Source of the DNA: a virus
DNA: 26,897 bases
IMG/VR virus record: IMGVR_UViG_3300032246_001148
Location: 1 to 26,897 of that record
Direction: 5' to 3' (one strand)
In this document: piece after piece, positions 3,065 to 6,120 of the stretch
How positions within the stretch are numbered: position 1 is the first letter of the stretch
How the letters are laid out: the number at the start of each line of letters is the position of its first letter
The notes under the pieces: generated by a model
What the model was told of the DNA's origin: nothing
Database searches by the model: none
The model's input: the letters and a program-made list of their open reading frames with translations, nothing else
Translations under genes and position numbers: made by a program

Positions 3065-3096
3065 AAGACCCATGCCATTTGAAAAGGAGAATCACA

Positions 3097-3882
3097 ATGG
3101 CCTTAACACCAGAGCAAATTAAATTACGACGCGGCCTAGTTGGTGGCAGCGATGCCAACACTATTATGGGGGGAAATGAGGAACGCATCATGCGCCTCTG
3201 GCAAGAGAAGCGTGGGGAGATTGAACCAGAAGATCTGTCTGATGTCTTGCCTGTTCAGATGGGCGTATGGACTGAGCCATTTAACTGTCAATGGTTTGAG
3301 AAGCAGACTGGCAAGAAGGTTACGTCTCAAGGGGAAAGCCGCCTGTGTCTGGATTATCCCTTCATGGGAAGCACATTGGATGGCCTAACCGACGACGACG
3401 CTTCTGTTGTAGAATTCAAGCATGTGTCTGCGTTTGCAAAATCAGAAGAGATTCTGGATCGCTACATGCCACAGCTACACCACAACATGATAGTTTGTGG
3501 TTTGGAGAAGGCGTATCTTTCAGTGTTCTTTGGCACTCTCAAATGGGAGAAATTTGAAGTAACCAAGGACCCCATTTACGCCTCCATTCTTATCGGGGCG
3601 GTAGAGAACTTCTGGGCTTGCGTTAAATCTGGCACACCGCCAGTTGCGACTAAGGTCAAATCACCTGTCGAAGCTGTTCGTCGTGTTGATTTCAGCACAA
3701 ACAACATGTGGGCAAACTTTGCGCAGCAGTACAAGGACAATGTCCAGTACAACAAGCTTTTTGAGGAAGCCAGCAAGGGGTTGAAGTCCCTTGTCGAAGA
3801 AGATGTTGTTGAAGCGTTTGGCCACGGTATCATCATCAAGAGAGACAAAAAAGGCTCTCTCAGACTTACAGCGAAAGGTTAA
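3097..3882 (+). CDS. YqaJ-type viral recombinase (alkaline exonuclease)
   Basis: The start at 3097 (MALTPEQIKLRRGLVGGSDAN...) has AAGGAG at 3084-3089; the product is 261 residues. It is a lambda-exonuclease-type PD-(D/E)XK enzyme that degrades the 5' strand of double-stranded ends to give 3' single-stranded tails. Motifs: R-x4-GGSDANxIMG (about 12-25), 'QMGVWTEP' with the helical Glu (54-61), catalytic D95 in GSTLDG, E106-F-K108, and 'YMPQLHHNM' (123-131), the usual Q-x-Q-type helix motif. The C-terminal 70 residues form a linker and a short domain ending in a basic tail. It is followed 3 bases later by the ERF gene, the classic exonuclease-annealase pairing. Confidence 0.9.
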   Translation: MALTPEQIKLRRGLVGGSDANTIMGGNEERIMRLWQEKRGEIEPEDLSDVLPVQMGVWTEPFNCQWFEKQTGKKVTSQGESRLCLDYPFMGSTLDGLTDDDASVVEFKHVSAFAKSEEILDRYMPQLHHNMIVCGLEKAYLSVFFGTLKWEKFEVTKDPIYASILIGAVENFWACVKSGTPPVATKVKSPVEAVRRVDFSTNNMWANFAQQYKDNVQYNKLFEEASKGLKSLVEEDVVEAFGHGIIIKRDKKGSLRLTAKG

Positions 3883-3885
3883 GTT

Positions 3886-4524
3886 ATGATTACGTCAGAA
3901 AGCATTGGAGCTATCAGCGCAGCGTTGGCTAAAGCACAGGCGGAGTTGAAGAACCCACCAAAGAACAAAGAGAACCCGCATTTCAAATCCAAATATGTTG
4001 ATCTTTCAGATGGTCTGGATGAGGTGCGTAAGACGTTGGGCAAACACCAGATTGCCTTTATCCAAGCTCCCATGATCAACGATAATATGGTTGTCTTGCA
4101 TACACGCCTTGCCCATTCCAGCGGCGAGTGGATTGAATCAATCTATCCTGTTTCTGGTTTGGACAAGCATCAGGCTATGGGTAGCGCCATGACCTACGCA
4201 AGGCGTTACGCAATCTTTGCGATGGTTGGCGTGGCTGGTGAAGACGACGACGATGGCAACACAGCATCTGAGACAGTTGCGAAGAAGCCAGCTCCAAAGA
4301 TCGTCAATATGCCAAAGCAGGAAATGGAACCCGGCTTTAATGACGACGAAAGCAATACCGTCTACGGCGTAATGCTTGGCGCATTGCAGATGGCGGAATC
4401 TTTGGAAGACTTGCGTAATTGGGCGACAGACAATCAGGCCAACAAACAACGCCTGCGACCGAACCATCAGAAGATGATTTCTGAAGAGTTCAAGAAAGTC
4501 GAAAAGGAATTGAGGACTGCATAA
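3886..4524 (+). CDS. erf: ERF-family single-strand annealing protein
   Basis: The 212-residue product matches the ERF superfamily of phage annealing proteins. Seen: 'AISAALAKAQAELKNPPKNKENPHFKSKYVDLSD' (9-42), the family's opening with the conserved FKSKYxDL; 'VRKTLGKHQIAFIQAP'; 'VVLHTRLAHSSGEWIES'; and 'QAMGSAMTYARRYAIFAMVGVAGEDDDDGN' (96-125), the highly conserved GSAxTYARRY block. The C-terminal third is a variable helical region likely used in oligomer or partner contacts. It should anneal the 3' tails made by the YqaJ exonuclease encoded 3 bases upstream. An AAAGG element precedes the ATG. Confidence 0.93.
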   Translation: MITSESIGAISAALAKAQAELKNPPKNKENPHFKSKYVDLSDGLDEVRKTLGKHQIAFIQAPMINDNMVVLHTRLAHSSGEWIESIYPVSGLDKHQAMGSAMTYARRYAIFAMVGVAGEDDDDGNTASETVAKKPAPKIVNMPKQEMEPGFNDDESNTVYGVMLGALQMAESLEDLRNWATDNQANKQRLRPNHQKMISEEFKKVEKELRTA

Positions 4525-4525
4525 T

Positions 4526-4987
4526 ATGTCAACCTCTTTGTACGTAAGGCGCAAGGGCAATACTCTTGTACCCTGCGCACAGGTGGATGAAGAGGTGCTG
4601 ATGTCCCTTCCAGAGGGTAAGGATATATCAGCGTCTCTTACCCGCCCCAGAAGCTCAAAGCAGCACCGCCTATTCTGGGCGCTGCTATTACAGGTCTGCA
4701 ATAACAGCGATGATTACAGCAAGCCTGAGCAGCTTCTTCTTTGGATAAAGATCCGTCTTGGCTACGTTGAGGCGGTAAGGTTTCATGGAGATCAAACTTG
4801 GTGGGTGGCTAAATCCATCAGCTTCAACTCTATGGGGCAGGATGAGTTTGGGAAATTCTTCAATGATTCAGTGGATTTAATTTGTACTGAAGTTATTCCC
4901 GGAATGGACCCAAATGCTCTCATTAATGAGGCAGAACAAGTTAGTGGCATTAGCACAAAGGAAGTGAAGGTAGATTATGGCTTATGA
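4526..4987 (+). CDS. DUF1367-like phage protein
   Basis: This 153-residue protein fits DUF1367, found in recombination regions of lambdoid and other phages. Seen: 'LYVRRKGNTLVPCAQVDEEVLMSLPEGKDI' (about 5-34), 'PRSSKQHRLFWALLLQV' (41-57), matching the family's 'RNxxxHRxFWALL', and 'WWVAKSISFNSMGQDEFGKFFNDSVDLICTEVIPG' (94-129), matching 'xxxKSIxFxxMdExEFxxFYxxxxxxI'. Its biochemical role is not established; NinB-like help in recombination is a guess. It starts one base after the ERF stop and overlaps the next start by 11 bases. Confidence 0.75.
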   Translation: MSTSLYVRRKGNTLVPCAQVDEEVLMSLPEGKDISASLTRPRSSKQHRLFWALLLQVCNNSDDYSKPEQLLLWIKIRLGYVEAVRFHGDQTWWVAKSISFNSMGQDEFGKFFNDSVDLICTEVIPGMDPNALINEAEQVSGISTKEVKVDYGL

Positions 4988-5234
4988 AATGCGAAACAAC
5001 TCAGGCTCAGCTTTTCCTGTTAAAGAAAAGAAAGATCCCAAGCATGGCGACCTGTCCGGGTCGTGCATTATTGAGGGAAAGGATTACTGGATCAACGTCT
5101 TTGAAAAGACTACCAGCAACGGGGGCAATTACCTTTCTTTTTCGTTCAATCTTAAGCAAGCGACTGCCAAGAGGGAAGAATCTGGTTTTAAAAAAGCGCC
5201 CAGCCAGTCCTTTGACGACGATATATCATTCTGA
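4977..5234 (+). CDS. Small SSB-like protein with an acidic SSB-type tail
   Basis: The 85-residue product begins MAYEMRNNSGSAF and has two short beta-rich stretches, 'LSGSCIIEGKDYWINVFEKT' and 'GNYLSFSFNL', suggesting a minimal OB-type fold. This 'xxNNSGSLFxNxKKxxxxHPDxxGxxxIxGxxYWI' pattern is a common phage family. The C-terminus ends in DDDISF, nearly identical to the DDDIPF tip by which bacterial SSB recruits partner proteins. Placed after the exonuclease, annealase and DUF1367 genes, it probably coats single strands or recruits host repair enzymes. A 85-codon frame at 4984-5241 overlaps it but lacks the family pattern and a ribosome site. ssDNA binding is inferred. Confidence 0.7.
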   Translation: MAYEMRNNSGSAFPVKEKKDPKHGDLSGSCIIEGKDYWINVFEKTTSNGGNYLSFSFNLKQATAKREESGFKKAPSQSFDDDISF

Positions 5235-5782
5235 TGTCTAAAGGTCATAGCATCGTTGGCGTTTCGCCGGGTAGGCCGGAGCATGACTTCTACAGGACGC
5301 CTATCGTTGCTGTAGAAGAGCTGCTTAAGCACGAAACGTTTCCGGGGATTGTTTGGGAGCCTGCTTGCGGTGACGGGGCGATATCTATGGCCCTAGAGAA
5401 AGCGGGGATCAATGTCTTGTCTTCGGATCTTATTGATTATGGGTTTGGCGTTCCTGATGTTGATTTTCTAAAAACAACTCAGATCGTTGATTCCGTAATC
5501 ACAAACCCGCCTTACAAGCATGCAAAGGATTTTGTTGAGCAGGCACTGACCTGCACGACACAAAAGGTTGCGATGCTGATGAAACTGTCATTCCTTGAGG
5601 GGAAAAGCAGGAAGGCATTTTTCAAGAACAGCCCGCTGCGAACCGTCTATGTGTTCTCCAACAGGCTCAAACTGAGCAGAAATGGCGATGATGCCGCTTA
5701 TAAAAATGGCGGTATGATAGCATTTGCTTGGTTTGTGTGGGATCATAGTTACGACGGACCACCAACTATAGAGTGGCTATGA
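5234..5782 (+). CDS. Phage N6-adenine-type DNA methyltransferase
   Basis: The 182-residue product is a compact class I SAM methyltransferase. Motifs: D18-F-Y-R-T-P, the phage adenine-methylase opening (DFYxTP); EPACGDG at 42-48, the SAM-binding motif I; a following acidic end at 'VLSSDLIDYG' (61-70); and the catalytic N-P-P-Y at 91-94, followed by 'KHAKDFVEQAL'. There is no separate target-recognition domain, so sequence specificity is unknown. Its start overlaps the previous stop by one base (TGATG). It might protect phage DNA from restriction or change host methylation. A GcrA homologue in the same operon makes GANTC methylation worth testing, but nothing visible sets the target. Confidence 0.85.
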   Translation: MSKGHSIVGVSPGRPEHDFYRTPIVAVEELLKHETFPGIVWEPACGDGAISMALEKAGINVLSSDLIDYGFGVPDVDFLKTTQIVDSVITNPPYKHAKDFVEQALTCTTQKVAMLMKLSFLEGKSRKAFFKNSPLRTVYVFSNRLKLSRNGDDAAYKNGGMIAFAWFVWDHSYDGPPTIEWL

Positions 5783-6120
5783 TGGCAAGGAAGTCCATAT
5801 CTACAAAGACCAAAGTAATGCTTTTCAATAAGCGTGGTGGCCGTTGCTACCTATGCGAAGGAAAGATCAACATTGGTGAATCTTGGGATCTGGAGCACGT
5901 CATACCACTGGCTATGGGAGGGTTGGATGAGGAATCAAACTGGGAGCTGGCGCACTCAAAGTGCCATCTCATTAAGACCAAGGCTGACTTTGGTAATATA
6001 GCCAAAGCCAAAAGAAGGGAATCTAGGCACATAGGTGCTAAAGAATCCAAGACCCCGCTTCCATTTGGAAAGAAATCTAAATGGAGAAAAAAGATGGACG
6101 GCACAATTGTGCCAAGATGA
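5779..6120 (+). CDS. HNH endonuclease
   Basis: The 113-residue protein starts with ATGATG at 5779, overlapping the methylase stop as ATGA; the GTG at 5773 is a less likely start. It contains a full HNH beta-beta-alpha metal motif: C23-x2-C26 (CYLC), E39-H40 in 'WDLEHVIPLAMGG', N54 in 'ESNWELAHSKCH', and C62-H63, followed by a basic tail. HNH enzymes nick or cut DNA. Next to the methylase it could form a small modification-and-cleavage pair, or act as a freestanding homing nuclease or packaging helper. The context does not decide between these. Confidence 0.85.
   Translation: MMARKSISTKTKVMLFNKRGGRCYLCEGKINIGESWDLEHVIPLAMGGLDEESNWELAHSKCHLIKTKADFGNIAKAKRRESRHIGAKESKTPLPFGKKSKWRKKMDGTIVPR

Follow-up and report, generated by a model that had tools for sequence, protein, structure and literature searches.

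A minimal phage protein of a family labelled single-stranded DNA-binding, encoded in a recombination operon and ending in a natural ssb-113-type tip

The ssb-113 allele is a classic laboratory mutant, in which one proline-to-serine change in the tip of Escherichia coli SSB (P176S) disables the contacts of the protein. Strains carrying it are described in PMC10164576 as damage-sensitive and temperature-sensitive, and the same source gives a greatly reduced affinity of the SSB113 tail for SSB-interacting proteins in general, with the peptide KD for RecG rising from 3.1 to 23 uM. For proteins of the Orf type, PMC4118853 reports no detectable ELISA binding of the Orf-family member YbcN to SSB113, and an association of lambda Orf with SSB113 that is kept. 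A phage protein comparable in its setting is SSB(HK620) (DUF669), which is encoded beside an annealing protein and whose short acidic tail, with PF at its end, recruits the Sak4 annealer to coated ssDNA; the loss of six C-terminal residues lowers recombineering tenfold and abolishes Sak4 binding to coated DNA (PMC5928155). SSB(HK620) differs from the protein described here in being, according to the same source, a 21.3 kDa tetramer with the tail NDYPPF, and is not assigned there to the family that we discuss.

The gene of our interest, called below mini-SSB, is carried by a virus contig record of 26.9 kb (IMGVR_UViG_3300032246_001148, positions 1 to 26,897), the whole of which is the window of this analysis. 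An initial annotation, made from the sequence, had pointed to an 85-residue protein ending in DDDISF and following exonuclease, ERF and DUF1367 genes; the frame from its ATG to its last residues was confirmed in the sequence, and Pfam and PHROGs matches bear out the gene order, which continues with a methyltransferase and an HNH endonuclease (Table 1). The mini-SSB gene shares its first 11 nt with the 3' end of the NinB/DUF1367 reading frame, and its stop codon runs into the methyltransferase ATG (TGATG, 5232-5236); these overlaps with both neighbours fit the expectation for a coupled operon. From the SSB-Ct docking motif the protein retains the terminal phenylalanine and the preceding acidic residues (DDDI-S-F), and the penultimate proline is absent, residue 84 being serine. 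Upstream, the window also encodes a homologue of the GcrA cell-cycle regulator (2107-2577, + strand, Pfam E 7.7e-14); GcrA is typical of Alphaproteobacteria, and the gene hints at an alphaproteobacterial host for this phage.

Table 1. Features of the mini-SSB gene and its neighbours in the window
Feature	Position	Strand	Basis
YqaJ / RecE-like exonuclease	3079..3882	+	Pfam YqaJ E 9.7e-16; RecE-like phrog_434 E 1.4e-42
ERF-type ssDNA-annealing protein	3886..4524	+	Pfam E 1.4e-27
NinB/Orf-like recombination mediator (DUF1367)	4526..4987	+	Pfam E 9.7e-9; NinB/Orf phrog_319 E 1.2e-19
GAAGG, possible ribosome-binding site of mini-SSB gene	4966..4970	+	by eye; 6 nt before ATG
mini-SSB gene, phrog_18154 / phrog_7364 family	4977..5234	+	85 aa; ATG start; end FDDDISF, then stop
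Core, residues 1-60, predicted beta strands 9-14, 26-32, 35-45, 51-59	4977..5156	+	AlphaFold
Linker, residues 61-79, variable, low-confidence	5157..5213	+	pLDDT near 50; column entropy >3 bits at -14 to -8
C-terminal tip DDDISF, residues 80-85, SSB-Ct-like, Ser replacing penultimate Pro	5214..5231	+	translation
DNA methyltransferase, start overlapping mini-SSB stop	5234..5782	+	phrog_799 E 6.1e-59
HNH endonuclease	5773..6120	+	Pfam / PHROGs search

The family to which the protein belongs is already known and named in PHROGs, and it is the tip of the window member that is unusual. The protein matches phrog_18154 (E 7.4e-7, residues 6-57) and phrog_7364 (E 4.7e-6, residues 7-63), each of which carries the label 'single strand DNA binding protein', and a profile search of the genome picks the same gene as their member; the earlier description as an SSB-like small phage protein thus agrees with the label that the family has in PHROGs and in phage records. 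With the window protein as a query nothing was found in Pfam at E up to 1, or by sequence among solved structures at E up to 10, and the bacterial SSB profile PF00436 matched neither anything in the window record nor the mini-SSB at E up to 1. A tblastn search of 50,697 phage records gave five distant relatives, including VpV262 ORF24, which bears the note 'similar to single strand DNA binding protein C-terminus'; because of this note at least one of the SSB labels rests on the tail, and the label of the family seems to depend partly on six residues. In the open-access literature we found no experiments on the family, ssDNA-binding assays included.

Queries with homologues widen the family; one of them reached 130 records, many of which bear an SSB label. 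When viral contigs were scanned with only the window protein as query, no relative came back, and relatives were gathered via the scan of a homologue and via neighbouring genes; among genome contigs the mini-SSB alignment found 13 loci and the NinB alignment none that was confirmed, and plasmids had no match to mini-SSB. A profile over 219 loci made 125 matches, which after removal of duplicates leave 90 distinct members, the seeds of the profile being counted among them. The members are 64-171 aa long. All 61 that were aligned match phrog_18154 and 56 of them phrog_7364; DUF736 (PF05284), a family of unknown function, is matched weakly by 27/61 (best E 3.6e-4), the window protein not among them, and the weak match of a single member (1/61) to Shiga-toxin B subunit profiles was taken as chance. 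A match of phrog_18154 was also seen in the E. coli control genome, perhaps owing to an SSB tail or a prophage gene.

In the core, Lys18 or another of K, R and H is present in 92% of rows, and positions 42 and 52 are aromatic in 97% and 95%; because such basic and aromatic positions are conserved, the mini-SSB appears suited to nucleic-acid binding. With the named members of the two PHROGs (VpV262 ORF24, phiVC8 p31 and gene 38 of Acinetobacter phage SH-Ab 15497) the window protein shares the core profile and the position of the tail, and differs from them by its tip, theirs being usually xxDIPF or xxDLPW, and by P24G and W42F in the core. Together with P84S it departs from 3 of the 6 columns conserved in at least 90% of rows, so that judging from the alignment the window copy may be diverging.

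Unusual features are seen in or beside several relatives. In VpV262 (L002, NC_003907.2 7957-16199) a reading frame at 3558-3953 of the locus carries a doubled tip, DNDIPFDDDIPF, at its end; it lies just upstream of the mini-SSB ORF24 and in a frame other than that of the annotated ORF22. For ORF22 a long region of R, G, N and S is annotated, and a second SSB-like protein could be made here by frameshifting. The p31 protein of phiVC8 (L049, 2995-3510) apparently consists of two tandem mini-SSB domains, with DDDIPF located 14 residues before the annotated C-terminus, so either the tip is internal or the stop is wrongly placed. A long frame on a Rhodoferax antarcticus contig (L231, 3758-4510) joins a mini-SSB domain to long Pro/Ala-rich repeats and has DDDIPF followed by extra residues.

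The SSB-type tail is a property of the family. The end [ILMVY]P[FW] was found in 76/90 distinct members and in 21/9013 other ORFs, and acidic-X-hydrophobic-[PS]-[FW] ends in 7/9013 non-family ORFs of at least 60 aa; since such ends are rare outside the family, the tail is beyond chance. Proline stands at position -2 in 80/90 members, phenylalanine or tryptophan at -1 in 84/90, and positions -6 to -4 are mostly acidic, with a preceding linker that is free to vary. By alignment columns, column 85 is aromatic in 98% of rows and column 84 is proline in 56/59 rows and serine in 2. A constant tip on a loose linker has, in these sequences, the look of a docking peptide. The window protein with its S-F end is one of the 14 members that miss the strict pattern, and another swap of the penultimate proline is seen in the mini-SSB of L112 (595-837, minus strand; tip DDEILF).

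DDDISF is the exact hexapeptide of E. coli SSB-113. The initial annotation had considered this tip as near-perfect, differing by one residue from DDDIPF, and had proposed the capture of host repair enzymes by it. This is doubtful, because the differing residue is the very change that weakens partner binding as described in PMC10164576; functionally the tip is not near-perfect, and such capture is less likely for the DDDISF protein than for its DDDIPF relatives. A neighbour of the Orf type might still read the serine tip, since lambda Orf keeps its association with SSB113.

The serine is preserved in a sister phage. In the contig IMGVR 3300032216_001931 (L140) the gene recurs, 69% identical in amino acids and 70% (179/255) in nucleotides and again ending in DDDISF; the methyltransferase adjoins mini-SSB there as well, and both phages keep the frame intact and its overlaps on either side. 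Between them all 4 codon differences in the tail are synonymous, with 0 replacements; in the core synonymous differences number 19 and replacements 17, and in the linker 4 and 9. This is suggestive, though with such small numbers not strong, of a constraint on the tail relative to core and linker. A serine tip was seen in three mini-SSBs, these two sisters and a distant third, L256, which also ends in DDDISF.

Other phage SSB families also have a few members whose tip takes the ssb-113 form. A viral scan gave 27 DDDISF stretches, from which we claim no enrichment of phages over cells, since the viral count of DDDIPF is a lower bound and gives no ratio; 9 of the 27 close ORFs shorter than 40 aa, and a single 49-aa frame, met twice, accounts for another 2. 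Ten of the 18 longer ORFs were put to Pfam and PHROGs, and 7 of these ten match families labelled as ssDNA-binding, which are several and unrelated: PF00436 SSB (three proteins), an Enc34-type ssDNA-binding protein, phrog_1192, phrog_743 and phrog_378 (L243, L258, L264, L245, L250, L261, L267). Two others of the 18 are mini-SSBs. A tail matched to a host SSB that would itself end in DISF was also considered and is unlikely, because the serine tip is absent from the genomes searched: DDDISF (TCN serine) occurs in 0/398 Pseudomonadota genomes, which have DDDIPF in 266/398, and DDEISF in 0/142 genomes in the class of the Bradyrhizobiaceae genome G058, which have DDEIPF in 66/142, these searches covering TCN-coded serine and the DDD and DDE tips within Pseudomonadota.

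The same operon arrangement is repeated in related phages. Among viral contigs, short ones included, 57 of 80 related ERF genes have a same-strand mini-SSB family gene no more than 2 kb downstream, and in 53 of those 57 loci an ORF of at least 100 aa lies between them; the intervening ORFs listed (30 distinct sequences) look NinB-like, and 15 of them aligned with each other. Of the 23 loci lacking a same-strand family gene, 4 have an opposite-strand copy, and in 3 the contig stops no more than 200 nt from ERF. In the reverse view ERF is present in 14/32 contigs found by the mini-SSB query and not by ERF, many of these contigs being fragments. In named phages mini-SSB adjoins Sak, ERF or DNA polymerase I (in one of them an endonuclease lies between mini-SSB and the polymerase), in phage MEP301 it follows RusA, and in the stretch examined of the Chaseviridae phages PM1 and Y2 neither an ERF/Sak nor a DNA polymerase I neighbour is visible. 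Because the neighbours vary in this way, the link of the mini-SSB gene is to recombination and replication genes in general. A replacement of ordinary SSB by mini-SSB through mutual exclusion is not supported, PF00436 being absent with mini-SSB (0/18 and 0/40 records, one record common to both sets) and equally from ERF contigs lacking it (0/16), so that there is no contrast.

As to the fold, AlphaFold builds the window protein from four strands without any helix (mean pLDDT 69, about 74-84 in the core), and predicts for the homologue L013 the same strand layout (mean pLDDT 75, best block 90); the two models, of moderate confidence, share essentially one alignment. The initial annotation had named an OB fold as the expected outcome of such modelling, and no five-stranded barrel appeared in either model. 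Foldseek gave 0 matches at E <= 0.001 among solved structures for either model, and the mycobacterial SSBs in its first list had a probability of 0.04 and TM-score near 0.15. Among viral models ten matches reached E <= 0.001, none named SSB among the matches listed; those ranking next include the SSB of Vibrio phage JSF9 (E 4.5e-3) and, further down, a DUF736 protein (E 0.05). Structural re-alignment ranked Borrelia Pur-alpha first for both models (Z 4.0 and 4.3); the T5 PC4 homologue reached Z 3.5 and 3.8. Such values may mean a common arrangement only. PUR/PC4/Sub1 entries make 12 and 15 of the best 50 rows per model (Z <= 4.3), and no OB SSB name is among these best 50 rows for either, an absence that excludes nothing.

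PC4-like and PUR folds are built of a four-stranded curved sheet followed by a helix and are dimeric, and PUR-alpha and PC4 are ssDNA-binding folds lacking an OB barrel. The curved four-stranded sheet is the feature shared with the mini-SSB models in these best, though weak, matches, while identity is about 8% and the C-terminal helix is missing from the mini-SSB model. With low confidence, based on the models, we suggest that the core is probably not OB and possibly PC4/PUR-like.

From this analysis we consider it likely that the window gene encodes a minimal phage ssDNA-binding protein of the recombination operon, whose tail aids the annealing proteins and whose serine tip weakens the contacts with host partners. 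The YqaJ-type exonuclease would resect phage ends and leave a 3' strand, which the mini-SSB core of about 60 residues, probably as an oligomer, would coat; the flexible acidic tail may then help to recruit NinB/Orf and ERF in the manner of the SSB(HK620) tail with Sak4, ERF being loaded with the help of NinB. In the window phage and its sister the serine would weaken binding to host SSB partners such as ExoI, RecQ, RecO, RecG or chi, and perhaps the tip serves mainly a phage partner or the shielding of the DNA-binding face by charge. The sequences show the family, the operon, the conserved tail and the serine in two sister phages; for the window protein we infer ssDNA binding, oligomeric state, choice of partners and the effect of serine. 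It speaks against a functional role of the serine that P24G and W42F also break near-invariant columns and that serine members are few.

An ordinary OB-fold SSB, merely shortened, would agree with the names given in PHROGs and phage records and with the SSB-type tail, and we regard it as unlikely: both models are four-stranded and helix-free, the core, with its roughly 60 residues, falls short of a usual OB domain, and when solved structures were searched by profile, an E. coli-type SSB was aligned with the tail and linker half only (E 0.27). Relative to bacterial SSB (PF00436), with which it has in common an acidic tip ending in phenylalanine, mini-SSB is also about half as long. Rather unlikely, yet a little less so, is a more specific history, in which a non-OB PC4/PUR-like mini-SSB gained an SSB tip that in this lineage later took the ssb-113 form, as in a few members of other phage SSB families, the tail being read by phage NinB/Orf or ERF only and host enzymes excluded.

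The tail has also to be considered as a possible mimic, by which a core that binds another protein or duplex DNA would serve as a decoy or adaptor and occupy or recruit host SSB-binding enzymes. The tiny size of the core, for which a sequence search of solved structures gave nothing, the SSB-type tail of most relatives and the DUF736 matches are compatible with it, but the ssb-113 change would weaken host partner capture, going by the accounts in PMC10164576 and PMC4118853, gene order ties mini-SSB to exonuclease, annealer and mediator, and the conservation of basic and aromatic residues is in keeping with a nucleic-acid-binding core; we hold this to be quite improbable. Least of all do we favour a decaying copy with Ser84 as drift: the three altered near-invariant columns could be read so, but the tail shows no replacement against the sister in the small numbers available, frame and overlaps are preserved in both phages, and DDDISF also ends L256 and other phage SSBs, which makes loss of function very improbable. 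What stands of the earlier interpretation is a small SSB-like phage protein with a real SSB-type tail in a recombination operon, and what is unsupported or doubtful is the OB fold and the near-perfect tip capturing host enzymes.

What makes the mini-SSB interesting is that a small core, probably non-OB, is combined with a natural ssb-113 tip. Phage SSBs trigger the bacterial defences Hna, as described in PMC13381803, and AbpAB, as described in PMC10732053; because several defences are triggered in this way, changes in SSB tails could matter for defence recognition, and if the tail is indeed reserved for phage partners, any defence that reads the Pro-Phe tip would also be shut out. The natural ssb-113 tips of several unrelated phage SSB families offer a test of whether such tails keep phage partners and drop those of the host.
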